Of a stretch of DNA of 64,000 nucleotides, positions 6,493 to 37,103 are shown piece by piece. Positions within the stretch are counted from its first letter, which is position 1; each line of letters starts with the position of its first letter. The notes below the pieces were generated by a model. The model did not search any database, had not been told where the DNA came from, and worked only from the letters and a program-made list of their open reading frames with translations. Source of the stretch: Macrocystis pyrifera (lineage: Eukaryota > Sar > Phaeophyceae > Laminariales > Laminariaceae); NCBI GenBank assembly GCA_031763025.1, contig JASSKH010000025.1:11878165-11942164 (forward strand), given 5' to 3'. A program made the translations under genes and the position numbers.

Positions 6493-6832
6493 ACGGGTAT
6501 GCTCGGTACCGGTACGGACATCGTACCGAACGTACCGAACTTCTCGGTACCGGTATGGACATCGTACCAAAGGTACTGAACGTCTCGGTACCGGTATGGA
6601 CATCGTACCGAACGTACCGAACTTCTCGGTACCGGTACGGATTATCGTACCGGCACCACCGGTACCGGTACGGATTGTCGTACCGGCACCACCGGTACCG
6701 GTACGAGTTTCGTACCGAACGTACCGAACTTCTCGGTACCGGTATAGACACCGTACCGAACGTACCGAGCTTCTCGGTATGGTACGGAAGCCCATACCGG
6801 TACCGGTACCGGTGATACCGGCGATACCGGCG
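6493..6832. repeat. GGTACCGG minisatellite, array 1
   Basis: Tandem ~41 bp units built on CGGTACCGGTACGGACATCG and TACCGAACGTACCGAACTTC, with shorter variants in which GTACCGGCACCACC replaces part of the unit. Unit starts near 6545, 6586 and 6627 give the 41 bp spacing. The array is rich in the GGTACC palindrome. Because 41 is not a multiple of three, the open frames across it on both strands are by-products of composition. Confidence 0.85.
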
Positions 6833-7699: not shown

Positions 7700-8043
7700 A
7701 CCGATATGCTCGGTACCGGTATACGCTCGGTACCGGTATGAACATCGTACCGAATGTACCGAACTTCTCGGTACCGGTATGGACATCGTACTGAACGTAC
7801 CGAAGTCCTCGGTACCGGTATGGACATCGTACCGAACGTACCGAACTTCTCGGTACCGGTACGGATTATCGTACCGGTACCGCCGGTACCGGTATGGACA
7901 TCGTACCGAACGTACCGAAAATCTCGGTACCGGTACGGACATCGTACCGAAGGTACCGAAGTCCTCGGTACGGGTACGAACATCATACCGAACGTACCGA
8001 TATTCTCGGTACCGGTATACCGGAGGTATACTACCGCTGGTAC
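7693..8043. repeat. GGTACCGG minisatellite, array 2
   Basis: Same unit and same orientation as array 1, with ~41 bp spacing (TACCGAACGTACCGAACTTC between CGGTACCGGTATGGACATCG blocks) and a few GTACCGGTACCGCC variants. It lies immediately upstream of the hAT domain on the minus strand. The two arrays are direct copies, not inverted, so they are not simply extended terminal inverted repeats. Confidence 0.85.
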
Positions 8044-8069
8044 GCCTCGGTATGTACCTTATCGAACAC

Positions 8070-8780
8070 AACCTTGAGGGGTATCTCCCAATATTTTGTT
8101 CTTTTTGGCGAAACGCCTACGTGCGCCTACTCGACAACAGACTGCTGAAAGAATTCCCTTCCCTTTTAATAGCGGTCGCAGCAATTTATATGTATGGCAT
8201 TCAGAGCGCCAGGCTAGGTCTCCTGCGCAACGAGGTCGTGCGAGTTGGCTTCCTTCTATGTATAAATGGCGTCGCCATGATGTTGCACCCACTCGGTGGG
8301 GTGCTGTATCGTTGCTTGGCTTGGACTGTGCAGGCTGTCCCGGGGTGTGCAGTGCGAGGACTTCGGCGGCGCCGCATTACGCTGTACCAGGGTATACATG
8401 AGCGTACGGCGTAGGTCAGCTGCGTGGGAGTTGAAATTGCTGAGCTAGTCGTTGAGAAGACCGGTACCTGTAGCTGTGCGCACCACCTGCCACACTTCGC
8501 AATATAATACATATAATTGTTCCGAATGTCTTGGCCGGGCAGAGGTTCCGCTGTCTGCCTACTGCCTACCAACAAGCCCAACCCAATCCAATATTTTCGT
8601 CAAGATGTGCCGATGTGCGGATTGACCCTTTGCTCCCGAGACCAGAAGAAAGTTCGCTTTTGTCTTGGTGCGAGACAGTTGGGGCCCCAACGAAATTGTC
8701 CAATATATGTTTCATGACGATTTGTGGCTTCAGGACATCATCCGATACGCCAACCGGCGCAAGGCGTTCGTTTATAAAGG
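8070..8780. other. No recognisable feature
   Basis: Short overlapping frames on both strands with no recognisable family. No repeat shared with the rest of the window was seen. Confidence 0.3.
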
Positions 8781-8781
8781 C

Positions 8782-8905
8782 TGACCGAGCGGCTCAGTGG
8801 TCTATGCTCTATTTTTCAAGCAAAAATGTATCTTTGGGCTCGATACGGCCTCCCGCCGATAATACACACCACCTTGGCTCACCGTCATCGGTCAACGCAC
8901 GCCGA
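8782..8905 (+). mobile_element. tRNA-bracketed repeat, left module only
   Basis: A head fragment of the same family as at 1-3000. CTGACCGAGCGGCTCAGTGG near 8780 is box A-like and GGGCTCGATACGGCC near 8836 is box B-like. CCGCCGATAA follows, as in the other copies. Similarity fades by about 8905, before the core, so the right module is absent. This shows that the family also occurs outside the cluster. Confidence 0.6.
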
Positions 8906-9025
8906 GACTGTCAGACTATGTTGAGGATAACTAATCTCCGAGCGATTCCTGTATCGCTAATCGCACTCGAATTGCGTACATTTTATCTTCCCCCCCAAAC
9001 TTCAAGTGTTAAAAAACAATTGCAG

Positions 9026-9201
9026 TTTGCACTTTGCTTTCGAAGTTGTATCATATTAATGCGCAACCCCCAGCCCGGAAAGGGGGGTTGGAGAAGGGGT
9101 GACTCCCCCGGGGCTGCCCCAATGGCAACCCCGCGCTAACATCCGTATACTCGAGTCAACTCCCAACCCAACTGGCGACACGGAACTCTCGACGCCAGCC
9201 T
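9026..9201 (-). repeat. Split direct repeat B2 of YR element 1
   Basis: A 176 bp copy beginning TTTGCACTTTGCTTTCGAAG and ending GACGCCAGCCT. The copy at 9882-10057 has the same length and about 96% identity. It contains a GC-rich AACCCC...GGGGTTGGAG hairpin. On the minus strand it forms the 3' end of the element. Confidence 0.85.
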
Positions 9202-9672
9202 ACCAAGCCGCTATCAGAAAAGCCGTTTCTGACAAATAACTCGAGAAACCACACCAAGTACAAGATAACCTCACATGTGAGAAAATCGACACGCACTTGT
9301 ACCAGGCATACACAAATAACACAAGTACATTTAAACTCACGATGCACTTCAATGTTAATATACGGATAACCCCCTTCTCCGATACTTTCAGATTGCGCGC
9401 AAAATCCGAGCCGATGCAACACCACGTCAACCCCACGTTTACTTTTATCAACTATAATAGTATGATATAAAGAAACCCCACTTGCATCGAACAATCCCAA
9501 ACGCCAAAGAAGGCGGCTAGCCCACGCCGCCACTCGCGCAATCTACGACACCCGGTCGCACCATCAGCGAAATTACCGGGTACGTATAACATACAGCAAC
9601 AAACGCAAACGTTACTGCGACTATTGAACTCTCCCCCACTGACTCCCTCAAAAGCACGGGCGGGTGGGTGGG

Positions 9673-9881
9673 AACTCAAACTAGTCTCACACCTTGGACC
9701 TGTAGCTCTGCCTCCGCATCACTGCGCTGATACGTGTAGGTCGCGGCTACGTACCAGACAAGGTGTGTTTTTAAAGGGCTACGATTCATGCTACCATGAA
9801 TCACCGCAGTCATCTGATTGGCTTGAACTTCTTACGTACGTACAAAACTCACATTCTCTCATTCTTCCGAGAATGTTCTGC
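9673..9881 (-). repeat. Split direct repeat A2 of YR element 1
   Basis: A ~209 bp copy beginning AACTCAAACTAGTCTCACAC and ending GAGAATGTTCTGC. It matches 14085-14291 at about 97%. A CATTCTC...GAGAATG hairpin lies at the outer edge, next to the element end. It joins B1 directly at 9881/9882. Confidence 0.85.
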
Positions 9882-10057
9882 TTTGCACTTTGCTTTCGAA
9901 GTTATATTATATCAATGCGCAACCCCCCGCCCGGAAAGGGGGGTTGGAGAAGGGGTGACCCCCCCGGGGCTGCCCCAACGGCAACCCCGCGCTAACATCC
10001 GTATACTCGAGTCAACTCCCAACCCAACTGGCGACACGGAACTCTCGACGCCAGCCT
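9882..10057 (-). repeat. Split direct repeat B1 of YR element 1
   Basis: A 176 bp copy matching 9026-9201. It sits between the recombinase fragment and A2, and its junction with A2 would equal the joint of a circular intermediate. Confidence 0.85.
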
Positions 10058-10166
10058 CCATCACACATGGGAGTTGACCCTATTTACTGATGTATTCTTA
10101 CGACCCCTTCCCCGTCCCACTTGCAATCTCGTAGGGAACGCATGTGATAACACACTTCACCATTAT

Positions 10167-10349
10167 TTACTTCTGCCTGTTCACCTCTAAGAGTGAATTA
10201 ACTCGCCCCCATTCAGTGCCCTGGCCCGGCTGGATCCCACCGCTCATCCCTTCGTGGGCCATAACGTCCGCTACCCAACTGGCATCCTTTCCGTGACTGC
10301 GAACATACGCCTTGTACGCATCGGACGCCCATCGGCCCTCACGCTGCAA
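10167..10349 (-). pseudogene. Tyrosine recombinase C-terminal fragment (YR element 1)
   Basis: The minus-strand frame contains LQREGRW followed by ASDAYKAYVRSH and a short tail with DASWVADVMAHEG. This fits the C-terminus of YR proteins of DIRS/Ngaro/Crypton type, where a GRW motif precedes the nucleophilic Tyr in a KxYxR setting (second Tyr, near plus 10305). The enzyme would cut and join DNA through a phosphotyrosine link at the element ends. The rest of the protein is not intact in one frame upstream, so this is a fossil. It lies about 110 bp inside repeat B1, where the recombinase ends in split-direct-repeat elements. Confidence 0.65.
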
Positions 10350-11039
10350 CGCCTTAGGTGGATCAACCCGCTCCCGCTCAGGTCCGGCGGGATCCCATTG
10401 TCACGACCATCCTAGGCCACTCCGTTTGCTATCCAGATGGCGTCCCGCCCCGTGGCGAAACACGTCATCAACCGCCGGGCTGCAACCCCTCTGGTACAGC
10501 TCCCCCTTTCGACGAGTTCGTTGCGCCTCCAATCCTCGGGAGTGCCGAGCGTACTCGTGCGCACACTCCCGCCAACGCAACCACTCGTCGCTAGGTTATC
10601 GGTCGATGAAGCGGAGTCCGCATAGAGCATCCGCCGCTGCAGACGCAGCACGTAACGAGGGGTCCGGCGAGGAAGAACAAAGGTAGTAACAAGACATACA
10701 CGCGAACGTGCGAAGGTGCGCAACGAACCCACACCCGAACACACGTAGAAACGGCCCCTTTCCCAAGCAGGTCACCTTTCAACTCACGAAACCACACCTC
10801 AACGCGGGCTGCACTGCGCTGCAAGTTAAACGGTTTCGCGATTGAAGTCAACATCAGTCCGTCGCACACGGACGGTATAAACAGCCCAACGCGCAGAACA
10901 CAAGGGGAAAAAATAACCAGGTGGAAAAAAAAAAAGAAAAAAACCACCTGGGAAAAAAAATTGACCAAGAATGCTCGCGGATCAGGACAGAAAATCACTG
11001 ACTGACTGAAAAAAAACACACCTTCCCCGCCCATGGACG

Positions 11040-13080
11040 GGTGCTGCGCACACGCACTGCAACAGCACACAAACCAACGTGTGGCTCATACTTCCCCAGA
11101 TGAACGATACACGAAATAAGGGCGACGAAGTCAACAAGTTGCGACACTTGCTTCGCTGAAGCAGATGCACACACTACAACAGGACACTGCCGCCCCCTGT
11201 GGACGGGTGTTAAGCACACGAAGAAACACCAAGATGCGACACCTGCTTCGCTGAAGCAGACGCACACACTGCAACAGCACACCGTCCCACCTTCTAGGCG
11301 GCTGTTACGCATACGAAGAAACAGGCACCCATGAAATCCGCGGCGGCGGAGATACGCGGTGTACCCATGGACACCACGAAACGCGTTGCGAAGAACCCCC
11401 CCAGATGACCGGGACACGGACATGCGCGAGGAAGCCGACGAGTTGCGACGCCTGCGCGGCGCTGAACCAGATGCACACACTGCACACACTGCAACGGCAC
11501 ACAGTCCAACGTGTATCACATGCTTCCCCGGACGAACGGCAAACAAAACGTGCACGAGGAAGCCGACGAAGTGCGGCATCTGCAAATATCTGACATGCAG
11601 CGCTGAAGCACACCCACACACTGCAACAGCACCCGGTCCAATCTGTGGCAAACGCTTCCGCGAATGAACGCCACATGAAACACGGACGAGGGCGCCAACA
11701 AACGCGACGCCTGCATCGCTGAAGCAGGCGCACACGCTGCGACAGCACACCGTCCCCCCTGTGGACGGGTGGTACGCAGACGAAGAAACGAGAACCGACG
11801 CAATTCGCTTTGGCGGCGATACGCGGTGTGCCCGCGGAGGTCACCAAACATATCGCAAAAAACCTTCCCCCGGATGAACAGCTAACGAAACATGCACGAG
11901 GAAGCCGACGAGTCGCGACACCTGTAGAGCTGGAGCAGATGCTCATTCTGCAACAGTATACAGTCCAACTTGTGCCACATACTTCCCCGGATGAACGGCA
12001 CACGAAGCACGGACGGGGAGCCAAAGAGTGACACCTGCTTCGCTGGAACAGACGTACGCACTGCAATAGCACACGGTCCAACTTGTGGCACACGCTCCCC
12101 CGGATTCCCGGATGAACGGCGCACGAAACATGGACGGGGAGCGAAAGAGTGACACCTGCTTCGCTGAAACAGACGTACCCACTGCAATAGCACACGGTCC
12201 AACTTGTGGCACACGCTTCCCCGGATAAACGGCACACGAAACACGGACGGGGAGCCAAAGAGTGACACCTGCTTCGCTGAAACAGACGTACGCACTGCAA
12301 TAGCACACGGTCCAACTTGCGGCACACGCCTCCCCGAATGAACGGCACACTAAGCACGGACGGGGAGCCAAAGAGCGACACCTGCTTCGCTGGAACAGAC
12401 GTACGCACTGCAATAGCACACGGTCTAACTTGTGGCACACGCTTCCCCGGATTCCCGGATGAACAGCACACGAAACACGGACGGGGTGCCAAAGAGTGAC
12501 ACCTGCTTCGCTGAAACAGACGTACGCACTGCAATAGCACCACGAAACATGGACAAGGAAATAAATAAGATACGACACCTGCTTCGCTGAAGCAGGCGCA
12601 CACACTGCGACAGCACACCGTCCCCCTGTCGACTGGTGATATGCACGACACCTGTAGTGCTGAAGCAGACGCACATGCTGCAACAGCACACAGTCCAACT
12701 TATGGCACATGCTTCCCCGGATGAACGGCACACGAGACACGGACACTGGAGTCAAGGAGTTGCGACACCTGCTTCGCTGAAACAGACGCGTGCACTACAA
12801 TAGCACATGGTCCAACTTGTGGCACACGCTCCCCCGAATGAACCGCACACGAAACATGGACGAAGAAGTCAACAAGATGCAACCTGTTTCGCTGAAGCAG
12901 GCGCACACCCTGCGACAGCACCCCCGACCCCCCTGTGGACGGGTGCTACGCAGACGAAGAAACGAGAACCGACGAAATCCGCTTCGGCGGCGATACGCGG
13001 TGTACCCACGGAGGTCACGAACCCGCTCGTGGAACTTCTCCCGGATTAACGGCTAACGTAATATGCACGAGGAAGCCGAC
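11040..13080. repeat. 114 bp tandem repeat array inside YR element 1
   Basis: Units centre on GACACCTGCTTCGCTGAAAC, GCACTGCAATAGCACACGG and GATGAACGGCACACGAAACA. Spacing between matching GACACCTG blocks is 113-114 bp, or 121 bp where a short CGGATTCC insertion doubles part of the unit. Units are most alike at 12,030-12,600 and more diverged outside. GCGGCGATACGCGGTGT blocks recur near 11,350, 11,810 and 12,990, which suggests a longer period. The minus strand stays open in three frames, the longest 448 codons (12651-11305), because 114 is 38 codons. The Cys-rich translation matches no family I know, and I do not call it a gene. Confidence 0.85.
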
Positions 13081-13349
13081 GCGACCCCCCCGATTGGCGA
13101 CCAGCAACTTGTACCACCATAGGTGGTTAAGCTACAGTGGAGCAACCGGTACCAGTTAGACCCCAATCCACGTATTATTGTAGCGAAGGACAATAAAATA
13201 TCAGTTACCACCGCTACCAGCTACACAGCCTGTATGCTCTGATAATCTCATACCACCAAGAAACAATCAGAGCGCCAATAGCTCAGAGTACGCTCTACCA
13301 GAATACTGCACAGGCCCTAGTTTCGGGAAACCGCTATCCCATACATTGG

Positions 13350-13770
13350 TAGTATACCCCGGTACGAGCATTTGACATATCGTACATACAACCGCTGCTG
13401 CACGAACACTGCTGTATACGCATGGCTGTACCAGTTATACTCACATAACCTTTTCTCGAGTTTGGTACCACCGATAAAAGTCTCGCATGAGGTATGATAT
13501 TTTGCATTAATATTATTAATAAAAGTACGAGCACTTGAAAGAACGTACGACCACTGCTGCACAAACCCTGCTGCTGTATCCGCACTTCTGCTGAACCCTT
13601 CATATTTACTATCAATAATCGTGCCTTTCCTCGAGTTTGGTACCAAGCAAAAGTACGAGGGGATGCGTCCGGTATAATATTCCCGCAAGCACACACTACC
13701 GGCCCATCGCTGCTGTACGCATGCGTTTGCAATTTGCGAACATAATGATACCACCGAGGGCGCAACATCC
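13350..13770. repeat. Diverged ~160-175 bp repeats, 2-3 units
   Basis: Recurring blocks CTCGAGTTTGGTACCA (near 13456 and 13632) and GCTGCTGYACGMAYRCTGCTG (near 13390, 13550 and 13705) mark two to three diverged tandem units. They lie between the 114 bp array and repeat A1 of YR element 1. The minus-strand frames across them have no recognisable domain. Confidence 0.5.
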
Positions 13771-14084
13771 CTGGTAAAGTTACACTGCTGTGCTACAGCA
13801 GTACACATCCCCTGTAACGTCTCACTGTGCTACGACATACCAGAGGTACCGATCTTGCCGATTCGTTCCTGTGCTGGCTTGTCCGGCCACGCTTGCCATG
13901 CCCTCCGAAATAGTCCCCAAGGTCTTCCGTCCACACTCCCAGCTAGCACCTCTTGTACACTCACAAGACACCACGAACGAGTCTCTCCAAGGAAGGTCCC
14001 TCGATCAAGAAAATAAAATAAAAAAGTGTCTGGCTGGCGAAAACCCTGCCTGCTCAGCGTTCAAACAGATCAGATCGAACGCTC

Positions 14085-14291
14085 AACTCAAACTAGTCTC
14101 ACACCTTGGACCTGTAGCTCTGCCTCCATCACTGCGCTGATACGTGTAGGTTGCGGCTACGTACCAGACAAGGTGTGTTCACCAAGGGCTACGATTCATG
14201 CTACCATGAATCACCGCAGTCATCTGATTGGCTTGAACTTCTTACGTACGTACAAAACTCACATTCTCTCATTCTTCCGAGAATGTTCTGC
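14085..14291 (-). repeat. Split direct repeat A1 of YR element 1
   Basis: A 207 bp copy matching 9673-9881 and forming the 5' end of the element on the minus strand. It carries the same terminal CATTCTC...GAGAATG hairpin. The differences from A2 are a 2 bp indel, one substitution and one short patch. Confidence 0.85.
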
Positions 14292-14530
14292 GCAAAAAAT
14301 GTCTTCAAATGGTCGTCTAGCTCTGTAATAGTCTCGTACGCCACTTGAATGGCCGTCTTTGAAGTCAGACAGAGAACTTCCACAATGCAGCAGCGACATG
14401 ACAGACGAACAACCGTCAAATGCCGGTAGGCTGGCTCTAAAATCTTCAACCACTTTATTGGACGGTTATCAGCGTAATATGTATTCGTTTCGTTGATTTT
14501 TCAGAAACACGAAGTCCGAGGAAAAATAAT

Positions 14531-14780
14531 GCGTAGTACCTCTAACTTCACGTGAGATGCATGTTTTGTTCACAACCGACGGAATTCATTATTTATAGTC
14601 ATGGGCTCTACCGACGGAAACTAAATGGCTTAATTTGTTCAGAGGCAGAGAGAACAGAAGAACAACCATACTCGCCCCGTGCCCCCTCCTAGCTTCTCGT
14701 GATAGGTGCACGAGTAGAGCACGGCACTGCTCGCTGCCGATTGATAGGCCTAGAGGCTAGGCCTACTGTTGCGGTTTCTC
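14531..14780 (+). repeat. Split direct repeat A1 of YR element 2
   Basis: A 250 bp copy beginning GCGTAGTACCTCTAA and ending TGCGGTTTCTC. It differs from 23220-23469 at about three positions. It contains a TAGGCCTA...TAGGCCTA palindrome pair near the inner end. Confidence 0.88.
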
Positions 14781-15439
14781 TGTTGCGGTTCCTCTTCACG
14801 TCAGCAACAGGCAGCAGCAGCAGCGGCGGTTGGCGAGCTGCAGCATCATGGAAAGGGAGGAGGATGAGCAGGGGCGACGCACGCTTTCCCGGTACGTGTG
14901 CGAGAGGCGTGCGAAAGAAGCGAGGGTCCGGGAATGTTCGGGGCTCTTATTTAGACCTTGAACTCGAGCGCAATAATTAATTAGGCGTGGGGCTGTCTAC
15001 TCTGATGCACAATGACTCACGAGCGTGCCTGATGCGTTACCTCGATCGCTTGGGGCCGCCAGCCATGATGTTTCCCACGAGGTTTCTGTTTTCTTGGCCG
15101 GTTCGCTCCGGTGTGTCTTGGTTGGGTAAGAGTTGCTTGCACACGCATGAAGGGTAATACGGGCAGACACTCGTATAAACTTTGGGTGTCCTTCCTGAAT
15201 CCGCGTATTCGCGAATCGGCCGTTCACAGGAGGGAACAACTGATGATATTCGCAACAGCGTAGACAGGACTCGTACATCAGTAGGGACATTCGATCGAGA
15301 CGCACCACCGCTGCAACGGGGCAAAGAGCACAAAGTCTGTACCTGATATCATGATATATCCATGCCCAGAATGGAGATAGCTACCCGCACACAGAGTATT
15401 TGGCTTTAATAGGGAATACTGATGGCACCTGAACGGAAC

Positions 15440-18400
15440 GCATATGTGCTGTACGAGCACTGTGCTGTACGAGCACGTACCAGGTTTCTTTTTCTCCTCG
15501 CAGACATGCCGCACCCAGGAATGGGGATACATACTCGCACGTACCGACATATACTTGACGTATACCGGGTATCCTCGATCTCACAGCTGACGTTGTTATT
15601 TCGCTGATATGTATGAACGACGCTACTTTGCCAGTGCCGTCGGCCCTTGGCCTTGTCCGTCACTAACGATACAGATCATACGTACACGTCGCGGGACACA
15701 ACGTACTGCTGTATGTACCAACAATACTGTGCCGGTGCGCTTAAAGGCTGTCGATGGTGAGGGACTTTGGGCCGGTGCAGGTCGCGTGCCAATGCGTCGG
15801 CCCTCGGCCCGTCCCTCACTATGAATAGCGATATCATACACGTCGTGAGGCACAATGCACGACTTTACGTACCAACACCGCTGGGCGGGTGCACTAAAAG
15901 GCGGTCGATGGTGAGGGACTATATGCCGGTGCAGGTCTCGTGGCCGGCGCTCACGCGTCGACCTGCGGCCCGTCCCTCACTAACGATACTATCATACACG
16001 TTGCGAGACACAATGCATTGCTGTATGTTCCTACGACGCTGTGCCGGTGCACAAAAAGGCGGTCGATGGTGAAGGACGACATGCCGGTGCAGGCCTCGCG
16101 ACCGGCGCCAACGCGTCGGCCCTAGGCCCGTCCCTCACTAACGATACATATAATAAACGTCGCGGTACACAACGAACGATGTATGTAAACCACCGCTGTG
16201 CCGGCGCACTAGAAGGCGGTCGACGGTCAGGGACTATGTGCCGGTGCACGGCTCGGGGCCGGCGCCGATGCGTCGACCCTCGGCCCTGCCCCTCACTAAC
16301 GATACCTATCATACGCGTCGCGATAAATATATACCTGGTGGCGATCTATGTCATACACGTCGTCAGACACAATGTACTGCTGTACGCCCCAACAACGCTG
16401 TGCCGGTGCACTAAAATGGCTGTCGATGGTGAGGGAAGATATGCCGGTGCAGGTCTCGTGGCCGGCGCCAACGCGTCGGCCTGTGGCCCGCCTCTTACTA
16501 ACGATACATACCGTACACGTTGCGGGACACAATGTATTGCTGTATGTTCCTATGACGCTGTGCCGGAGCACTAAAAGGCGGTCGATGGCGAGGAACCATG
16601 TTGCCGGCGCAGGCCTCGTGGCCAGCGCCAACGCGTCGGCCGTTGGCCCGTCCCTGACGAACGATACATATAATATACGTCGCGGTACATAGCGAACGAT
16701 GTATGTAACAACACCGCTGTGCCGGCGCACTAGAAGGCGGTCGATGGTGAAGGACTACTGTATGTGCCGGTGTACGCTTGGGGGCCGGCGCCGATGCGTC
16801 GACCCTCGGTCCTGCCCCTCACTAACGATATTTGTGCTACGCGTCGCGACGACTGTAGCGACATATATCATACACGTCGTGAGACACAATGTACTGCTGT
16901 ACGTACCAACAACGCTGTGCCGGTGCACTAAAAGGCGGTCGATAGTGAGGGAATATATGCCGGTGCAGGTCTCGTGGCCGGCACCAACGCGTCGGCCTGT
17001 GGCCCGTCCGTCATTAACGATACATATCATACACGTTGCGAGACACAATGTATTGCTGTATATTCCAACGACGCCGTGCCGATGCACTAGAAGGCGGTCG
17101 ATGCTGAGGGACTATGTGCCGGCGCAGGCCTTATGGCCGGTGCCATCGCGTCGGCCCTTGGCTTTTCCTCACTAGCGACACATATAATGAAGGTAGCGGT
17201 ACACAACGAACGATGTATGTAACAACACCGCTGTGCCAGCGCACTAAAAGGCGGTCGATGATGAGGGACTACGTGCCGATACACGGCACGGGGCCGGCGC
17301 CGACGCGTCGACCCATGGCCTTGCCCCTCAATAGCGATTATTCTCATACGCGTCGCGTCGAGTATAGCGATATATATCATTCACGTCGTGAGACACAATG
17401 TACTGCTGTACGTACCAACAACGCTGTGCCGGTGCACTAAAACGCGGTCGATGGTGAGAGAAGATATGCCGGTGCAGGTCTCGGGGCCGGCGCCAACGCG
17501 TCTGCCTGTGGCCCGTATCTCACGAGCAATACATATCATACACGTTGCGAGTTGCGAGACACAATGTACTCCTGATGTTCCAACGACGCTGTGCCGCTGC
17601 ACTCAAAGGCGGCCGATGGTGAGGGACTATGTGCCGGCGCAGGCCTCGTGGCCGGCGCCAACGCGTCGGCCCTTGGCCCGTCCCTCACTAACGATACACA
17701 ACGAACGAGAAGACCACTGTGCCGGCGCACTAGAAGGCGTTCGATGGTGAGTTACTACTGTATGTGCCGGTGCATGGCTTGGGGCCGGCGCCGATGCGTC
17801 GACGCTTGGCCCTCCCCTCACTAACGAGAGACACAATGTACTGCCATGAGTTTCAACGACGCCGTGCCGGTGCACGATAAGGCGGTCGATGGTGAGGGAC
17901 TATGTGCCGGCGCAGGCCTCGTGGCCGGCGCCAACGCGTCGGCCCTTGGCCCGTCCCTCACTAACGATACATACAATACACGTCGCGGTACACCATGAAC
18001 GATGTAGGTAACAATACCGCTGTGCCGGCGCACTAGAAAGCGGTCGGTCGACGGTGAGGGACTATGTGCCGGTGCACGGCTTGGGGCCGGCGCCGATGCG
18101 ACGACCCTTGGCCCTGCCCCTCACTGACGATGCATATCATACGTCGCGATCAATATATAGCGATATATATCATACGCGTCGTAAGACACAATGTACTGAT
18201 GTACGTACCAACAACGCTGTGCCGGTGCACTAAAAGGCGCTCAATGGTGAGGGACTATATGCCAGCGCAGGCCTCGTGGCCGGCGCCAACGCGTTGGCCC
18301 TTGGCCCGCCCCTCACTAACGATACATATAATAAACGTCGCGGCCCACAACGAACGACGTATGTGACAACACCGCTGTGCCGGCGCACTAGAAGGCGGTC

Positions 18401-19060
18401 GAGGGACTATGTGCCGGTGCACGGCTTGGGGCCGGCGCCGATGCGTCGACCCTTGGCCCTGCCCCTCACCAACGATACTTATCACACACGTCGCGATAAA
18501 TATATAGTGATATATATCATACACGTCGTGAGACAGAATTAACTGCTGTACGCCCCAACAACGCCGTGCCGGTGCACTAAAAGGCGGTCGATGGTGAGGG
18601 AAGATCTGCCGGTGCAGGTCTCGTGGCCGGCGCCAACGCGTCGGCCTGCGGTCCGTCTCTCATTAACGATACATATCATACACGTTGGGAGACACATTTA
18701 CTGCTGTGTGTTCCTACGACGCCGTGCCGGAGCACTGTAAGGCGATCGATGGGGAGGGGCTATGTGCCGGCACAGTCCTCGTGGCCGGCGCCAACACGTC
18801 GGCCCTTGGCCCGTCCCTCACTAACGATACACATCTTAGACGTCGTGGTACACAACGAACGATGTATGTAACAACACCGCTGTGCCGGCGCACTAGAAGG
18901 CGGTCGATGGTGAGGGACTATGTGCCGGTGCACGGCTTGGGGCTTACGCCGATGCGTCGACCCTTGACCCTGCCCCTCACTAACGATACTTAACATACGC
19001 GTCGCGACGCACAACAACGATGCCGTGCCGGTGCACTTTATGGCGGTCGATAGTGGCGGA
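15440..19060. repeat. GCCGGYGC satellite with higher-order organisation
   Basis: About twenty monomers built around GGCGGTCGATGGTGAGGG, GTGCCGGTGCA, GGCCGGCGCC and CCGTCCCTCACTAACGATAC. Starts of the GGTCGAT block fall near 15903, 16061, 16218, 16421, 16580, 16739, 16937, 17096, 17253, 17447, 17611 and so on. The spacing repeats as about 158, 158 and 195 bp. The long monomer carries an extra A/T-rich tail (CGATAAATATATA or similar). This is a three-monomer higher-order repeat of about 515 bp, less regular after 17.6 kb. Open frames on both strands are side effects of repetition. Confidence 0.85.
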
Positions 19061-19206
19061 GTTTGCGCCGGTCTACGTCTCGTGACCGGCGCACTGGCCT
19101 ACAGTCGAGATTGACCGGAATGCATGCTGGCGCATGCGTCACCCCCGTCCCACTAGCTATACATTCGTACCAAAGACACAGGCGCGTGTCACCCCAAGGA
19201 AAGCTC

Positions 19207-19690
19207 TCGGCCGGTGCACGAGATACGCGGTGCGGAGCACCAGATAGCGGATGCTGTTGATAGGAAGATGCCGGTGCATGTCAACAACCGCGGCTATAAA
19301 CAACGCCGGCGCGTACTAATGGTGTGCCGGCGCACACCAGCACGGGGACAACAAAGCCCCACCCTTGTCCAGGCCGGTGCATGGATAGAGCACCAGGTAG
19401 CGGATGCTGTTGATAGGAAGATGTCGGTACATGTCAACAACCGCGGCTATAAACAACGCCGGCGCGTACTAATGGTGTGCCGGCGCACACCAGCACGGGG
19501 ACCACCAAGCCCCACCCTTGTCCAGGCCGGTGCATGGATAGAGCACCACATAGCGGATGCTGTTGTTAGGAAGATGTCGGTGCATGTCAACAACCGCGGC
19601 TATAAACAATGCTGGCGCGTACTAATGGTGCGCCGGCGCACACCAGCACGGGGACAACCAAGCCCCACCCTTGTCCAGGCCGGTGCATGG
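19207..19690 (+). repeat. Three 153 bp tandem units
   Basis: Units are spaced 152-153 bp, with GCGGATGCTGTTG near 19249, 19401 and 19554. Each includes CATGTCAACAACCGCGGC and GTGCCGGCGCACACCAG, so they share the GCCGGYGCA motif of the neighbouring satellite and are probably a derived monomer. A plus-strand frame (19214-19717, 167 codons) encodes three 51-residue repeats containing HVNNRGYKQ and RRTPARG. Few unit-to-unit changes are available and they show no clear bias to silent sites. Coding status is doubtful. Confidence 0.8.
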
Positions 19691-19915
19691 ATAGTGCTCG
19701 CCGTCGCCTCTATCTAATATCGTTGCCGTCGCGCCGCCCCGTTCCGCTTCCGCGTCGTGTCATCGCGTCCGTTGTCGCCGTCGTTGTGTTCTCTTCCGCG
19801 TCCGCGTCGTCCGCTGTTGCCGTCACTGTGTTCTGTTACGCGTCCGCGCTGTCTCGCCGAGTCCAAATTTCGCAGAGGCCCGGCGAGAACGACGGCGGAG
19901 AGGGGAATTGGGACA

Positions 19916-21850
19916 ATGACGGGTAGCGACGGCGACGAGGAGGCTTTCGCGTCGCTGGCCGACTTTGCAACCTTCAAGCAGAGGATGGCGAACGAAGTCT
20001 CCTAGCTCCAGGCGGCGCTCCAGAGATCGATGAACGACATTATCGAAGCCTCCCGCCGTCCCGCCCTCGGGGGGGGGGGGCGGCGCCAGCAGGTTCGGAA
20101 CGCATCCCGGCAGCTCCGCTGCCGGGGCCTACCTGCTGGACCACTCTCCCAGCACCGCCCTGCTCGGATCGCCGGCCGGACAGCCGTTCGGGAACCCCGT
20201 CGCTGGGATCCTCCCGCCGACTCCCAACATCGCTGGCCAACCCGTCGATGGGGCCACGAGCGCCCGCGCGGGTCTGCGTGGGCTCCCCAACCCCGAGCAG
20301 GGCAGGCTCGCCGTAGGTCCGAGGCGGGCGTTCTGCCACGGCGGTACTCCGGACGGCACCCCTCTCGGACAGGCAGGTCCACTCGCCGTGGTCCCGGGAG
20401 AGCGGGCTACGGTAGTGTTTTTTTTTGGGGCGGTACCGAGGCCACCGTGGGCCCAGCGGAAGAAGTCGGCTACGGTGGCGCTTTGGCCGGTGCCGAAACC
20501 GCCCGCGCCCAACTCGGCCAGGCGAGCGGGCTCGCAGTGGCTCGAGGGGGGCTCGGCTACGGGGGCTATGTGGGCGGTGCCGGTGGTGCCGTCGCCTTCT
20601 CCGGAAAGGCGGGCGGGCACGCCGCCGGCTCGGCTACGTCCCGGGCGGGGCAGGAGCCAACAGCGTGCCATCGATTGCACTCGGCCACGCGGCCCGCGAC
20701 GGGCCGGGTGGGCTTGAGGTCGGCACGGACGTTTTACGGGGACGGCAGCGCCAGCAACCCGCTTACGCCTTGGGCCGACAACTTAACCAGATTATGACCA
20801 CCCACGCAAAGGCATCGTGGGCCAGCCCCACGACTCGGCTATGGCAGATTATCTGCGGTGGCCGCCTGGCGTCAATGCAGAGGGCGACCGTGCAGGGGTA
20901 CGTGGGAGCCACGGTCAACATTTCGGCCGGTGTCCATGGCACGTTGGAGCGTTGGACGACCTAGACTTTCTGGCCTTCACACCGCGCGGGGGGCAGGCAT
21001 CAACCGTCCACTGGCACGACACCTGAGCATTTTGAGGTACGCGATCGTTACGATCGCGTCCCGCGGGCTCCCACATAATGGCGCGGATCTCAATGTGACG
21101 CACGCTCGCTTGGAGGCGCTCGGACGAGCCTTCAGCGCGGGGGACACGATCATCAACGACCACGTTATGGAGCACGCTGCGGTCGCCGATCGCCCGGCAA
21201 ACTAGGCCAGGCTGGCGGCTCTGGTCACCAAAGACCTGGCGACCTTCACGCTCGACCTGCGCGGTGTCCCCGACTTCTGCGGCCACGCTTGGCCCTACCC
21301 CCCGCCGGCGGAGTCCCTTTCCTGCCATTCCGGGGCCGCACTGGCCCCGCCTTTCCGACTGCGTCGCCCTCGGCGGCCTTATCAACGCCGAAGTCCAGCA
21401 ACCTCGCCTTTCTCCATCCCGGCGGCTGGGGCCGGGGGTGGTAAATGCCGGCAACGGGGGGAAGACCAGCAGGTGCCGCTTCAGGGACACCTGTGTGTTC
21501 TCCCACGTCGGTCCCGCTCGCAAGACGGCTACCGGCGGGGGAGGGTCGGCCGATGGCGGCGTCGCAGCCAGCGGCGCTGTATCCGGGGAACCCTGGTCAA
21601 GAGGGCCAAGGGCAAGGGCAGGCGGGGGCTGGGGGTGGCGGTGCAATTAACGGGAGCAGCAGCCGCGGCAGTGGCAGCGGCGGTGGCAGCGGCAGTGGCA
21701 GCGACAGCGGGGCGTCGAGTGGGGGGCGCTTCACTCGGTCGGCGGCTGCCAAGGCCGATCGTAGGGCGCATGGAAACAGGAACGAGTTGCACAGCTTGTA
21801 TGTCCGGGGTCGGCGTCCGCTGGGAGCCCAGGTCTTGGGGCGAGCGGGTG
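19916..21850 (+). pseudogene. Gag-like GC-rich region of YR element 2
   Basis: A GC-rich stretch between the satellite and the recombinase. Pieces of protein-like sequence lie in more than one frame: an acidic start near 19916 (MTGSDGDEEAF), a Gly/Ala-rich GYGG-bearing stretch around 20.4-20.65 kb, and a CRFRDTCVFSH motif near 21478-21510. The last has a CX5CX3H spacing like the end of a CCCH zinc finger. By position and composition this would be the gag-like part of a YR retroelement. The region looks broken, with several breaks. No RT motif (YxDD) was found. Confidence 0.4.
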
Positions 21851-21857
21851 TCGCGCT

Positions 21858-22900
21858 ATGCTCAGTAGCGCTGGTAGCCAGCTCGTCCGCCAGTCGGTTG
21901 CGCCGTCATCTCACCGAGCTTACACGTCAGGTTTCGGTCTCGAATGGTTTATTTTTTTTCGGGGGTTAATAGAGGTGGCTGCGTATTTCGACACGCCAGC
22001 CTTCACTACGGATAAGATTCAGGCGTTGCTTAAGTTCGTAGCATGGTGTGCGTTGGAGGGCAACCAAGCCTGTACTGTTGCCAGTAAACTATCAGCCGTG
22101 TTCCACCGAGTAAACTTACAATGGAGTTTCCCATGTCGTCGCCGCTTGCAAAACGTGCATTGCAAAGGGGGGCACGGTCGCACATTGCCGCCGGTCCCTC
22201 ATGCAAAGAATCCGTCGCCCTATTTCGTGGGACACGTTGTTGGGAGGACAGGGCCGGTCCGTGTCGTGGGGCCCGGGTGGTCGAGTTCTTTGGCTGTCGT
22301 TGGCATTGGGCTATTTATTTATTTATTTTCATGGCGAAGTCTGACGAAATATTCGCTTATTTGTCCGGAGTTGTACACCCCGTGCATTGCTTGACGAGGG
22401 GTGACGTAGCGTTACTCACGGGGGAGCGGCGGTTGACCTCGTTGCAGTGGCATCAGGCCACCAGCATCAGGGTCCTGTTTCGGGGCCATTAAGGGTCCAG
22501 GCTCAGCAAAGGTCGGGTATCGTGCGCACACGCGACGACGCCTTCGGGGCGCGTTCCGGGGTAGGAGCAGGCGGCGGTGCCGTCGCTCTCATGGTGGAGT
22601 TGTTGTCGGAATATCCGACGCTGCCAGAAAAAGCGCCCCCCTGTCGTCGTATCGGTACGGTAAGGAGGTTAAAGTTGGGAGGTACACGCAGGCCCTCGGG
22701 GCACTTCGCGAAGTGGTAGCGGAAGCAGGAGACGGTGCCAGCGAAGTCGGCCTCCACTCATTGGGTATTGCGCAACCAATACGCTGATGGCCAGGGAGAA
22801 GTGCCGTAGAGGGCGATCTGAGAGAAGGTAGAGGGAAGCTTCAAAGTTTCCTACACGTACATTCGCAATAACCCAGAGGACGCGGGTATTGTGTACTCGT
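21858..22900 (+). pseudogene. Tyrosine recombinase of YR element 2 (fossil)
   Basis: The frame opening at 21858 contains RQSVAPSSHRAYTSGF, an aromatic FIFF segment, KIQALLKFVAWCALEG and a VASKLSAVFHRVNLQW stretch. This is the pattern of the N-terminal core-binding (SAM-like) domain of YR integrases: a PSS.RAY start, a helical bundle, then an S.LSA..H segment. Further patches in the catalytic half appear near 22.35-22.45 kb and 22.70-22.90 kb in other frames, including a degraded HSL-type patch and a tail resembling YIRNNPEDA. The gene is broken, with several breaks. It ends about 90 bp before repeat B1, as expected for a split-direct-repeat element. Confidence 0.6.
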
Positions 22901-22991
22901 AAACTAGCAGAGACGGGAAGATAGGCAGAGGCATCCAGGCCAGGGCACTGTTTGGGGGCCTAACACCGTAGTATCGACGCGACCTCGATAT

Positions 22992-23219
22992 TGGGGTATG
23001 TCAATGGTTTACTACCATTGGGGGTCTCGGTCGTCCGAGACTGCGTTTGTTAGAGCCCCGGCCAGTCGGCTGGGGGGGGGGAACTCCCGGGTACTGGCAG
23101 TACGATAGGCAACGAGAGTCAGCGGCCGGTGTCGCGGCTCTCGTACCACGCCAGTGGATTCCCCCCCCGACGTCGCAGAGAATAATAATAACATGACAAT
23201 TCGAAGGATACACAACAAA
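22992..23219 (+). repeat. Split direct repeat B1 of YR element 2
   Basis: A 228 bp copy beginning TGGGGTATGTCAATGG and ending GATACACAACAAA. It is nearly identical to 23602-23829, with about two differences. It joins A2 with no spacer. Confidence 0.88.
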
Positions 23220-23469
23220 GCGTAGTATCTCTAAGTTCACGTGAGATGCATGTTTTGTTCACAACCGACGGAATTCATTATTTATAGTCATGGGCTCTAC
23301 CGACGGAAACTAAATGGCTTAATTTGTTCAGAGGCAGAGAGAACAGAAGAACAACCATACTCGCCCCGTGCCCCCTCCTAGCTTCTCGTGATAGGTGCAC
23401 GAGTAGAGCACGGCACTGCTCGCTGCCGATTGATAGGCCTAGAGGCTAGGCCTACTGTTGTGGTTTCTC
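23220..23469 (+). repeat. Split direct repeat A2 of YR element 2
   Basis: A 250 bp copy matching 14531-14780 at about 99%. The following 132 bp (23470-23601) are not found in A1 and separate A2 from B2. They end in a purine-rich AGGAGAGTGGGG stretch. Confidence 0.88.
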
Positions 23470-23601
23470 CCGCCCACCCGCCCCTTTCTTCTTTCGAAGG
23501 TGGGTGGAACGGAGCGGCCACATGGTGCTGGCCACACCGTATTATACTTTTATTATTGTTTGCGATTAACTGGTTGCGATTCGGGGCTCTCACTAGGAGA
23601 G

Positions 23602-23829
23602 TGGGGTATGTCAATGGTTTACTACCATTGGGGGTCTCGGTCGTCCGAGACTGCGTTTGTTAGAGTCCCGGCCAGTCGGCTGGGGGGGGGGAACTCCCGG
23701 GTACTGGCAGTACGATATGCAACGAGAGTCAGCGGCCGGTGTCGCGGCTCTCGTACCACGCCAGTGGATTCCCCCCCCGACGTCGCAGAGAATAATAATA
23801 ACATGACAATTCGAAGGATACACAACAAA
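23602..23829 (+). repeat. Split direct repeat B2 of YR element 2
   Basis: A 228 bp copy matching B1 and forming the 3' end of the element. The outside flank begins TAATCTC. The flank outside A1 ends AAAAATAAT, so the two flanks share an AATAAT-like sequence and not a standard target duplication. Confidence 0.85.
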
Positions 23830-23850
23830 TAATCTCACTAATTTTACTAA

Positions 23851-25205
23851 GACCAACTATTATGGGAAATATTTGGAGGGGTCTCAGAACTGGCATTTTT
23901 TTGCTGAAAACCTGCGATTTACTCGACGTCACTGTCAAAAACACCGGTAGATTCCTCAAGATGCTCCCCTTAGTTTTCCGAGAGTTTTCTCGAGCACTTT
24001 TACGTTTCTCCATGTTAATATTAATAGTGGTATTTGGGCTGTTCGTCCATATTTCCAGTTCTGAGGGCATGGTGATTTTTCACTAAAAATCCTGCAAGAC
24101 CCACTATTTCTGGCCCCAGTTCTGACCAACAGCCTTATTTCCAGGGCTTTTCGCGGGTCAGGTCAAATCTCACGAGTCCGGTCGGGCCAGGTCGGGTTAC
24201 CTGACCCGACCCGACCCGTAGATTTTGAAAGCCTCTTGACCCGACCCGGCCCGACCCGCTAGATTTTAAAAGTTGTTGACCCGACCCGACCCGGACCCTT
24301 CGAATTGATCCGTGAGACACGGGTTTCATGTGGGTCGGGTCACCTTGACCCGCGAGACGATTTATCTTTACCCGCAGGTCCGACCTGCGGATCCGGCCCG
24401 TGAGTCGACACTTCGAAAAACAATTTAATATTCCTTTTTTGTGCCCACAAGCGATATGTGGCCTGGCTGTAGTAGGTATAAATGGATCCGGGCATGCGTA
24501 TACGGATTTGGCAATGTTTAAATGTTTGAATAAGATACCAAATGAATATTATTGAGGATTTGTACGAGAAAAGCCTTTGGGTAAGAGAGCGGGAAGTGTT
24601 TTGAGTGTCGGATCCGCGTTCCGCGGGCCGGATGCGTGGGTCCGACCCGCGGGCCAGCTGAAAAGCACTCGCGGGTCGCGCTGGTCCGACCCGCGAGTGA
24701 CCCGTTTTTTGTGGGTCATGACCTGACCCGACTCGTGAGCTCTTCATCATGGTCCGACCCGCGAGTGACCCGTTTTTTTTTGCGGGTCGTGACCTGACCC
24801 GACTCGTGAGCTCTAAATCACTTCCTGACTCGACCTGACCCGACCCGTGAGATTTGAAAACTTCTTGACCCAACCCGACCCGTGAAATTTCGAATACTTC
24901 CTGACCGGACCCTACCCGACCCGTGTCATTTTTAACACCCCGTGACCCGACCCGTGGGGCGCGTCATGATCCGCGAAAAGCCCTGCTTATTTCCGACCCT
25001 TCAGAGAAAAGTGATTGGCTGCTCCAAAAATTATATTAGGACCGTGGAGAAACGGAAAATTGTTCCCGAAATCTCGCAAGAAACTACGGGGAGCATTTTG
25101 AGGAGTCTATCGGTGGTTTTGGCTTTCCCGTCGAGTAAAATGCGTATATTCGGCCTAAGACCTTAGTTCTTAGAGCTCAGAAATAATTTCCCATAATAGT
25201 TGGTC
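23851..25205. mobile_element. PIF/Harbinger-like long-inverted-repeat element, split by a MITE
   Basis: The ends GACCAACTATTATGGGAAAT (23851) and ATTTCCCATAATAGTTGGTC (to 25205) are perfect inverted repeats. TAA flanks each side (23848-23850 and 25206-25208), the 3 bp TWA target duplication typical of PIF/Harbinger. Similarity continues inward: left blocks near 23955-24020 (TCAAGATGCTCCCC, TTACGTTTCTCCATG) pair with inverted matches near 25050-25110. The element is therefore a foldback of about 500 bp, cut into arms of 291 and 220 bp by the hAT MITE. No transposase is present, so it is non-autonomous. Confidence 0.75.
24142..24985. mobile_element. 844 bp hAT MITE with subterminal ACCCG repeats
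   Basis: Perfect 15 bp terminal inverted repeats, CAGGGCTTTTCGCGG and CCGCGAAAAGCCCTG, are flanked by an exact 8 bp direct duplication CTTATTTC (24134-24141 and 24986-24993). This is diagnostic of hAT. Both sides of the interior are filled with short GACCCGACCCG or CGGGTCGGGTC-type repeats spaced by TAGATTTTGAAAG-like linkers. In hAT elements such subterminal repeats are usually transposase-binding sites. There is no coding capacity. It is inserted in the PIF/Harbinger-like element and is therefore the younger of the two. Confidence 0.92.
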
Positions 25206-25930: not shown

Positions 25931-26162
25931 ATATGGAAGCTTTATCTTTGGTTTAGAAAAAACCAAGGCTTATCACAGTGACTGAGAATCGTGACGGGAC
26001 GGGACGGGACAGATTTGAGTTGTTTGGCGGGAAAAAAAAATGAAAACGGAACGGGACGGTAAAATGAGGACATAAAACGTTGGCTGGACGGGACGGGACG
26101 GGACAGCGGGTGCCAAATTTCTCGGCGGGACGGGACGGTAAAAGTCAACGGGGCTGATTTTC

Positions 26163-26400
26163 ACCACGGGACGGGACGGTAAATATTTTCCCCTCGGCGG
26201 GACGGGACGGTAAATATTTTTTTCCTCGGCGGGACGGGACGGTAAATATTTCTTTCCTCGGCGGGACGGGACGGTAAATATTTTTTTCCTCGGCGGGACG
26301 GGACGGTAAATATTTTTTCCAACGGCGGGACGGGACGGTAATTTTCTTTTTCTTCGGCAGGGCGGGACGGTAAATACGTTATTCTTCTTTCCCGCCGCAG
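26163..26400. repeat. ~32 bp GGGACGGGACGG minisatellite, left end
   Basis: About seven units of CGGCGGGACGGGACGGTAAA plus a T-rich linker (TATTTTTTTCCT), spaced about 32 bp. Looser GGGACGGGAC repeats extend left to about 25994. The array lies just inside the left hAT-like end. Confidence 0.9.
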
Positions 26401-26413
26401 GGTCAGCACGGTT

Positions 26414-26645
26414 TATGGCCTCTGCCAGATGATATCAGCAAGAGGGCTTCCAGCGAGGGACTCCACCAGTCTCGCTGGCCTCGCACTCAGTAAGTCTTGT
26501 TCTTAGAGCTTGTATTATCACGGAGTGATCCTCATCGGACCACGAGCCAGGTGGCTAGGGGACATCACACAGGATCCCCGGCCACTGCTCCACTCACACA
26601 TGCGATTACACTGAAACCTCCACGGCTTGGTATCTTTTGGCTACA
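26414..26645 (-). repeat. 3' LTR of gypsy element 1
   Basis: 232 bp, identical as read to 31943-32174. Next to it inside the element is a polypurine tract that reads GCTTTGGGGGTGC on the sense strand (plus 26646-26658). Confidence 0.95.
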
Positions 26646-26723
26646 GCACCCCCAAAGCGAGTTCACTCGACACGAACGAGCTTGACAAAACCAAAAAACC
26701 AAGACGAAATCGCATGCGGCAAA

Positions 26724-31735: not shown

Positions 31736-31929
31736 AATCCACAGCAGTCCACCTGGACTCTACTGTAATAACGGAGAAACTGCCGCCTGACCTGTGCGTC
31801 CTCCAGCTCCCGGAGCGTCCTCCCCTGCTGTGCGCTTCAAGCCGTTTCGATCCGTCCAACGGGCCAACTGCCTTCCCAGCTGTGACCCAATACTCCGCAG
31901 CCGAAAACTCCTCCAACAGAAGTTCCGCG

Positions 31930-31943
31930 AATATCTAGATATT
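31930..31943. other. 14 bp perfect palindrome at the primer-site position of gypsy element 1
   Basis: AATATCTAGATATT is a perfect palindrome and touches the inner edge of the 5' LTR, where a tRNA primer-binding site normally starts. The usual TGG start of a primer site is not seen here, so the primer is unknown. Confidence 0.6.
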
Positions 31944-32174
31944 ATGGCCTCTGCCAGATGATATCAGCAAGAGGGCTTCCAGCGAGGGACTCCACCAGTC
32001 TCGCTGGCCTCGCACTCAGTAAGTCTTGTTCTTAGAGCTTGTATTATCACGGAGTGATCCTCATCGGACCACGAGCCAGGTGGCTAGGGGACATCACACA
32101 GGATCCCCGGCCACTGCTCCACTCACACATGCGATTACACTGAAACCTCCACGGCTTGGTATCTTTTGGCTACA
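31943..32174 (-). repeat. 5' LTR of gypsy element 1
   Basis: 232 bp, beginning TGTAGCC and ending CCATA on the sense strand, identical as read to the other LTR. The promoter should lie here, but I cannot place a TATA box with confidence. Confidence 0.95.
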
Positions 32175-37078: not shown

Positions 37079-37103
37079 GGGGAGTTTGGTCCCTAGGAAA
37101 ATA

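Follow-up and report, generated by a model that had tools for sequence, protein, structure and literature searches.

Two diverging split-direct-repeat elements of Macrocystis pyrifera with broken putative tyrosine recombinase genes and quadruplex motifs bordering A2

Repeat layout of the two elements

The window, the whole stretch of DNA analysed, comprises 64,000 nt from Macrocystis pyrifera (GCA_031763025.1, contig JASSKH010000025.1, positions 11,878,165-11,942,164, forward strand). It contains two adjacent elements, e1 on the minus strand from 14291 to 9026 (5266 bases) and e2 on the plus strand from 14531 to 23829 (9299 bases). Their features are listed in the sense direction of each element.

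Features of e1:
14085..14291, minus strand: repeat A1, the left end, beginning GCAGAAC; 202 of 209 alignment columns identical to A2
13100..14084, minus strand: about 1 kb without recognised features (no Pfam match of note)
11026..13081, minus strand: tandem array with units of about 113-117 bp (repeat detection)
10170..10400, minus strand: putative remnant of a tyrosine recombinase (YR) C-terminus (REGRWASDAYKAYVRSHGKDASWV ... PGQGTEWG), from the open frame, e1/e2 similarity and a reading of known YR motifs, with no usable library match
9882..10057, minus strand: repeat B1; 172 of 180 columns identical to B2, 3-4 flank bases included
9673..9881, minus strand: repeat A2, abutting B1 to the base (alignment to A1, junction sequence)
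9658..9672, plus strand: quadruplex motif GGGCGGGTGGGTGGG on the antisense strand of e1, in the first bases of the gap
9202..9672, minus strand: gap of 471 bp between A2 and B2
9026..9201, minus strand: repeat B2, the right end, a repeat of B1 ending ...GTGCAAA

Features of e2:
14531..14780, plus strand: repeat A1; 247 of 250 positions identical to A2
15638..19004, plus strand: tandem array with units of about 158 bp (repeat detection)
19235..19694, plus strand: second array, 3.0 copies of 153 bp (repeat detection)
19916..21510, plus strand: possible broken Gag-like region (by eye)
21465-21506, plus strand: CCCH-like zinc-finger remnant (CRFRDTCVFSH)
21846..22960, plus strand: broken putative YR gene, interrupted by stops and by several shifts of frame; HSLG in place of the expected HxxR, PGQGTVWG at 22935-22958
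22992..23219, plus strand: repeat B1; 226 of 228 positions identical to B2
23220..23469, plus strand: repeat A2, abutting B1 to the base (alignment to A1, junction sequence)
23469..23484, plus strand: sense sequence CCCGCCCACCCGCCCC at the border of A2 and the gap, where the antisense strand has a quadruplex motif
23470..23601, plus strand: gap of 132 bp between A2 and B2
23602..23829, plus strand: repeat B2, the right end, a repeat of B1 ending ...CAACAAA

Both elements have the order A1 - interior - B1|A2 - gap - B2, which in e1 holds on the minus strand. The two diverge, and their A1 ends face each other across 239 bp (14292-14530). The B1|A2 junction is exact to the base, with the sense sequence ...GTGCAAA|GCAGAAC in e1 and ...CAACAAA|GCGTAGT in e2, so that AAA|GC stands at the junction in both; likewise each element begins with GC and finishes with AAA. 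With A1 at one end, B1, A2 and B2 at the other, A1 matching A2 and B1 matching B2, this is the layout of the Ngaro, PAT and VIPER YR retroelements. The initial annotation had described the four repeat pairs, the head-to-head arrangement, the abutting repeats, the shared termini, both gap sizes and a split-direct-repeat layout of Ngaro/PAT type, and self-comparison, repeat alignments and junction sequences bear all of these out.

The A and B pairs of one element diverge alike. Counting substitutions without indels, and four adjacent changes as four, e1 has 5/207 in the A pair and 7/179 in the B pair (p 0.56), and e2 has 3/250 and 2/228 (p 1.0). Pooled, e1 has 12/386 against 5/478 in e2 (p 0.046), and e1 appears to be the older. 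Both results are expected if the repeats of each element were made alike at insertion.

Between the elements, the repeats show little kinship at the nucleotide level. Among four A/B comparisons only B2 with B2 (52.0% identity) lies above its 8 shuffles (37.8-47.3), while the other three fall within or below theirs. Local alignments also stay within the shuffles, the score being reached by 353 of 500 for B1 with B1 and by 154 of 500 for A2 with A2.

The window is rich in tandem arrays, with 34 rows that overlap in part, and they cover 1006 of the 5266 bases of e1, 3543 of the 9299 bases of e2 and 3225 of the 49435 bases outside.

Recombinase remnants and coding capacity

The putative YR genes of both elements are broken. 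YR-like protein had been noted just inside B1, which is correct, but the sequence is thinner than described: in e1 it is one 77-aa open piece with GRWASDAYKAYVR, and in e2 it is several out-of-frame pieces. We take both remnants to be YR from known motifs of the family and from their similarity to each other. In a frameshift-tolerant search of the window with the e1 C-terminus as query, run with one set of penalties, the e2 site next to B1 was the sole outlier, with a score of 63 compared with 40 for the next place and 47 for the best of six shuffled queries. When 52-aa windows were scanned without frame jumps the e2 site came second (44, behind 45 at 58700), so the claim of kinship rests on the frameshift-tolerant scan. 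By protein, then, e1 and e2 look like one lineage, as had been proposed.

Library searches gave no YR profile match in either element (Pfam on sets of 10, 10, 123 and 9 proteins, 8 of the last 9 being the Ty3 control described below; PHROGs on 2). Nor did PDB sequence searches with the element proteins return a YR or an RT, RNase H or methyltransferase (MT), the best E values being 0.28 and 0.33, and phage records gave no match. Several candidates were set aside. The match of the e1 piece to phrog_7468, of unknown function, which covers its GRW part at residues 29-65, is too weak to use at E 0.021, as is that of the e2 zinc-finger remnant to Pfam zf-CCCH_2 (E 0.07, below its cut-off). The predicted fold of the N-terminal piece of the e2 YR is all-helical, with pLDDT 53.2 and no PDB match at E <=0.001. 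Searches of viral contigs for relatives by protein gave 13, 7 and 15 pattern matches, none confirmed, and a second motif search there gave 0. One motif match in a viral contig (L001) is not within any of the 13 listed frames of at least 100 aa, which are phage-like by eye, and one in a genome contig (L002) is on the strand opposite a 658-aa frame that looks kinase-like by eye; both were taken as chance.

No Pfam family for RT, RNase H or MT was matched at E up to 1 among 123 six-frame pieces of e1 and e2 (pieces of at least 45 aa, outside the array parts 11001-13049 and 15671-19699), a search that in a positive control, the intact neighbouring Ty3-type frame cut into 80-aa pieces, finds RT in two of the eight pieces and RNase H in one. 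In e2 the zinc-finger remnant and the YR region are about 340 bp apart, which leaves no room for RT between them. In layout e1 and e2 resemble Ngaro and PAT; since none of these domains was found, they are assigned to neither family.

Comparison with known elements

Ngaro elements, as outlined in the relevant parts of PMC8547959 and PMC4157794, have the order A1-[ORFs]-B1A2B2, a YR, internal repeats downstream of the YR and no MT domain. The likeness to e1 and e2, whose YR is putative, extends to all of these, although the lack of MT (0/123 pieces) means little in decayed copies, and Ngaro differs in having RT/RNase H. PAT-like elements (PAT1, Kangaroo and TOC elements such as TOC3) share the split direct repeats and a YR, which is putative in e1 and e2. 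They are defined by RT/RNase H together with an MT-like domain, not found among the 123 pieces; in addition the nematode form of PAT1 is described in PMC4157794 with internal repeats between MT and YR, whereas in e1 and e2 the YR precedes B1.

The gap between A2 and B2 had been regarded as a departure from known elements, and this is not supported. In the pertinent part of PMC6681497, VIPER of Trypanosoma cruzi has A1 at its 5' end and B1, A2 and B2 at its 3' end, and SIRE, its short form, consists of the A2 to B2 region with about 30 bp of exclusive sequence. VIPER thus has the same repeat order, and SIRE resembles the A2-gap-B2 part of e1 and e2, with the difference that their gaps are 471 and 132 bp. 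The published order of the nematode form of PAT1 also implies unrepeated sequence ahead of the last repeat. VIPER codes for RT/RNase H, and VIPER/TATE elements are marked by RT/RNase H of the VIPER clade, which was not found among the 123 pieces. In contrast to DIRS1-like elements, with their inverted terminal repeats and internal complementary region, the repeats here are direct, and the one inverted pair of at least 40 nt in 8000-25000 (24142/24944) lies outside both elements. TOC1 of Chlamydomonas, as Day et al. reportedly described it in 1988, has long split repeats flanking a large core, does not code for RT, and has 123 bp of unique sequence separating the last two repeats. If so, it would come closest to a gapped layout that lacks RT.

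The A2 edge and the origin of the layout

What this analysis newly observes is a quadruplex motif where A2 meets the gap, present in e1 and e2 alike. The window holds only two strict G3N1 motifs, both at this edge and in the same orientation, and the identity of A1 and A2 ends at the motif in each element. Simulated windows contained no strict motif (0 in 60), while looser loops of up to 7 give 15 motifs in the window; quadruplex energies were computed with RNA parameters, not DNA. The probability that both strict motifs would land on a repeat edge by chance is about 2e-6, a rough estimate made after the fact. The C-rich starts of the two gaps align only weakly, 26 of 1000 shuffles reaching the score; it is the position and the quadruplex form that stand out.

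It is likely, on balance, that e1 and e2 are two decayed members of one split-direct-repeat YR lineage that moved through RNA and circular DNA with RT from elsewhere and, possibly, a quadruplex stop at the end of A2. Movement through RNA and a circle is the most likely route, and the elements probably depended on RT supplied in trans, given that their YR is broken and no RT is recognisable. The B1|A2 junction inside the element would serve as the template on which the B and A ends of an incomplete copy are rejoined into a circle. Insertion of the circle by the YR would then regenerate A1 - interior - B1A2 - gap - B2. This explanation is favoured by a layout common to elements whose repeats are largely unlike, by the base-exact B1|A2 junction, the like divergence of A and B pairs, the YR kinship and the placing of the two strict motifs, and by the circle model for DIRS1-like elements, for which PMC3266345 gives a 3-bp junction and no target duplication. 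Several points count against it. No RT, RNase H or MT was matched among the 123 pieces, in e2 there is no room for RT between the zinc-finger remnant and the YR region, and without frame jumps the e2 site ranks second. YR retroelements in general insert without target-site duplication at a short sequence that matches the circle junction; here the left flank fits the AAA junction in two of three positions in e2 (AAT) and does not match in e1 (TGC). Possible 4-bp flank repeats (TAAT/TAAT in e2; TTGC/CTGC, 3/4, in e1) are not predicted by conservative YR insertion, HSLG replaces HxxR in e2 and no library profile calls YR, and the quadruplex case consists of two elements noticed after the fact, in a window with 15 motifs at looser loops and with energies from RNA parameters.

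It is possible, though doubtful, that each element is an ordinary dead Ngaro- or PAT-like copy from which RT was deleted and in which arrays filled in, the quadruplex being there by chance or as a promoter-like sequence (GC-box/CACCC). This account overlaps the preferred one; the two part over the way RT was lost and over the meaning of the motif. The broken coding remnants and the abundance of arrays agree with it, and the part of PMC12477816 that bears on Ngaro elements reports them as common in at least one alga. Against it, no RT is recognisable in either element, the e2 zinc-finger remnant and YR are almost adjacent, and chance placement of both motifs is improbable by the estimate above.

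The order can equally be read as [A...B][A gap B], that is, two DNA elements in tandem at each locus, a long Crypton-like YR element followed by a short non-autonomous one inserted at its end, with no RNA step. No RT was found among the 123 pieces and YR is the only recognisable enzyme, as in Cryptons, which have a YR without RT and whose 4- to 6-bp terminal direct repeats (PMC3212892, in the portion describing them) resemble the TAAT on both sides of e2. However, the same portion presents Cryptons without long direct or inverted terminal repeats, and here there are direct repeats of 176-250 bp. Joining through a 4-bp repeat should also leave it between B1 and A2, where both junctions abut, and the long-then-short order would be needed twice, in elements with largely unlike repeats. 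That the A and B pairs of each element have diverged to a like degree also speaks against this origin, which is unlikely. A fragile site at the quadruplex, where replication slippage or template switching in DNA made the A duplication and no circle was ever used, would fit the end of A1/A2 identity at the motif but leaves B1/B2 and the base-exact B1-A2 abutment unexplained, and is very improbable.

If the elements were copied through RNA and a circle, plus-strand synthesis, with the first cDNA strand as its template, would have run through B1 and A2, and the antisense quadruplex may have halted it where A2 ends. A strand terminating in B1-A2 would then transfer to A1, making A1 a copy of A2, and the stop would set the length of A. 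We suggest, as a tentative proposal that may well prove wrong, that such a stop at the 3' edge of A2 acts in split-direct-repeat elements much as the primer-tRNA stop does in LTR retrotransposons, here in a lineage with its own recombinase and a borrowed RT. A self-coded YR beside no recognisable RT raises the question of whether the elements are parasites of RT-bearing relatives. How split repeats are kept alike during the copying of YR retroelements has so far been modelled from layout. The A repeats of these two relatives share no detectable sequence, yet the same rare motif stands at their edge, offering a concrete signal for the edge-fixing step, one open to checking wherever a genome has intact copies of Ngaro, PAT, TOC or VIPER.

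Split-repeat layout and known kinds

Two neighbouring, decayed split-repeat elements, e1 and e2, occupy 9026-23829 of the window and are oriented away from each other. The repeat layout is as the initial annotation had observed it: four direct-repeat pairs in the order A1, interior, B1/A2, gap, B2, with B1 and A2 abutting to the base. No base lies between the repeats at this junction, which reads AAA/GC in e1 and e2 alike. In alignments, A1/A2 and B1/B2 have 202/209 and 172/180 identical columns in e1, and 247/250 and 226/228 in e2.

Features of e1 and e2
14291-14085, minus strand, e1 A1
10057-9882, minus strand, e1 B1
9881-9673, minus strand, e1 A2
9672-9202, minus strand, e1 gap
9201-9026, minus strand, e1 B2
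14531-14780, plus strand, e2 A1
22992-23219, plus strand, e2 B1
23220-23469, plus strand, e2 A2
23470-23601, plus strand, e2 gap
23602-23829, plus strand, e2 B2
9882-9900 and 9026-9044, minus strand, B-repeat ends with TTCGAA...CAAA, by eye
23200-23219 and 23810-23829, plus strand, B-repeat ends with TTCGAA...CAAA, by eye

By eye, the B repeats of both elements have TTCGAA 19-20 bases from the end and CAAA at the terminus, a sequence arrangement that may be a recombinase-binding arm.

TOC1 of Chlamydomonas reportedly has split repeats, a 123-bp unique stretch and no reverse transcriptase (RT). The A1 / B1 A2 B2 order that e1 and e2 share is known from Ngaro and VIPER, and split direct repeats are found in PAT as well (PMC4157794, PMC8547959, PMC6681497). 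SIRE, the A2-B2 part of VIPER, is described as having about 30 bp of exclusive sequence (PMC6681497), like the A2-gap-B2 of e1 and e2, and in nematode PAT1 the internal repeats are placed between methyltransferase and tyrosine recombinase (YR) (PMC4157794). Cryptons are without long direct repeats (PMC3212892), whereas e1 and e2 carry them. With SIRE and nematode PAT1 as precedents, the A2-B2 gap is not new; the initial reading of a split-direct-repeat layout stands, but not its view of the gap as a departure from the textbook layout. The two elements look as if they work like Ngaro, PAT and VIPER, but they are not filed as members of these groups because RT and RNase H were sought and not found.

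A quadruplex motif at the repeat edge

The position of a quadruplex motif at the edge of A2 and the gap offers a testable molecular signal. The strict motif (four runs of at least three G with single non-G loops, on either strand) occurs twice in the 64 kb, and in none of 60 first-order Markov windows.

Strict quadruplex motifs
9658-9672, e1, adjoining 9673, the sense end of A2
23469-23484, e2, where A2 ends at 23469

Identity between A1 and A2 ends at the motif in e1 and one base inside it in e2. Both motifs read C-rich in element sense and G-rich in antisense. Allowing any single-base loop adds two matches, both homopolymer runs, and with loop lengths from 1 to 7 the total rises to 15 places. 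By a rough, after-the-fact estimate, the two motifs would both touch a repeat edge (16 edges in all) by chance with a probability of about 2e-6, for a case of two examples. With RNA parameters, antisense folding gives -39.3 and -40.4 kcal/mol with quadruplexes versus -15.0 and -18.3 without. A literature search on quadruplexes together with DIRS, Ngaro, split direct repeats or strand transfer gave no description of a quadruplex at this edge among the 15 matches listed out of 203; in the single listed match with both quadruplex and DIRS/Ngaro terms, quadruplex appears just in the title of a reference.

In the published model for DIRS1-like elements, the ends are rejoined on an internal junction copy, and the resulting circle inserts via YR with a 3-bp match and without target duplication (PMC3266345). 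The most likely mode of copying for e1 and e2 would be similar, but with direct repeats: RT would be supplied in trans, the antisense quadruplex might stop the plus strand at the A2 end, the halted B1-A2 strand would transfer to A1, and the circle would insert by YR. The flanks count against this mode, as does a motif case of two examples; compared with AAA, the left flank is TGC in e1 (no match) and AAT in e2 (2/3). Two possible 4-bp flank repeats, also counted against it, could be weak duplications or chance.

Possible flank repeats
14527-14530 and 23830-23833, e2, TAAT/TAAT
14292-14295 and 9022-9025, e1, TTGC/CTGC in element sense

Kinship, age and coding remnants

The putative YR remnants support the proposal of the initial annotation that e1 and e2 are two members of one lineage. 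Element e1 has a single open piece (10170-10400, minus strand), REGRWASDAYKAYVRSHGKDASWV followed by PGQGTEWG, in which GRW...Y is presumably the second half of the tyrosine recombinase catalytic box. The e2 counterpart is scattered over frames and terminates in PGQGTVWG (22935-22958); across all six frames of the window, PGQGTxWG is present at two sites, one in each element. The 54-aa C-terminus of e1 was compared with both strands of all 64 kb by frameshift-tolerant local alignment under a single set of penalties. The e2 site just inside B1 scored 63 and the next-best place 40, while the best of six shuffled queries reached 47 and the reversed query 42. When frame jumps were disallowed, the e2 site came second among places (44 vs 45). 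One lineage is thus supported by the frameshift-tolerant match and the shared PGQGTxWG. The repeats contribute little to this case: B2/B2 identity between e1 and e2 (52.0%) exceeds all 8 shuffles, and neither the other three A/B comparisons nor local alignments of A and B rose above shuffles.

Substitutions, excluding indels, affect 5/207 positions of the A pair (four adjacent changes scored as four) and 7/179 of the B pair in e1 (p 0.56), and 3/250 and 2/228 in e2 (p 1.0). The similar divergence of A and B pairs within each element fits a single origin at insertion. Pooled counts (12/386 in e1 vs 5/478 in e2, p 0.046) suggest that e1 is the older.

Pfam, PHROGs and PDB sequence searches of element proteins did not return YR. 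Among 123 stop-to-stop pieces of at least 45 aa on both strands outside the array parts (9026-11000, 13050-14291, 14531-15670 and 19700-23829), models for RT, RNase H, methyltransferase, DDE integrase and YR had no match at E up to 1; 14 other families matched one piece each (best E 0.022). As a positive control, the intact neighbouring Ty3-type frame, cut into 80-aa pieces, gave RVT_1 in 2/8 and RNase H in 1/8. A decayed, distant RT could escape such a search. What may be a broken Gag-like region in e2 has an ATG at 19916 and a CCCH-like remnant (21465-21506). The YR region begins about 340 bp beyond this remnant, and therefore an RT cannot fit between them. Tandem arrays sit between A1 and the coding remnants in both elements, covering 1006/5266 bases of e1, 3543/9299 of e2 and 3225/49435 outside the elements.

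Neighbouring Ty3-type elements and arrays

Two long open frames of the window look Ty3-type by eye; RT and RNase H domains lie in one of them. The element at 26413-32175 (minus strand) combines long open frames, which include RT and RNase H, with end repeats of 234 bp that are identical (100%), and apparently inserted very recently. Related 32-bp-unit array sequence flanks it (25964-26413 and 32871-33206), which would fit insertion within or next to such an array. The second, recognized by eye (34536-43286, minus strand), has 492-bp end repeats that are 97.4% alike, an open frame of 1409 aa and, upstream, another frame separate from it. Arrays at 26167-26376, 33018-33153 and 43541-43690, each near a Ty3-type element, are built of 32-bp units (CGGGACGGGACGGTAA...) that closely resemble one another. 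Arrays of 41-bp units rich in CGGTACCGGTACGG lie at 6502-6788 and 7713-8018, and a 364-bp unit is repeated 3.5 times in tandem at 51583-52826.
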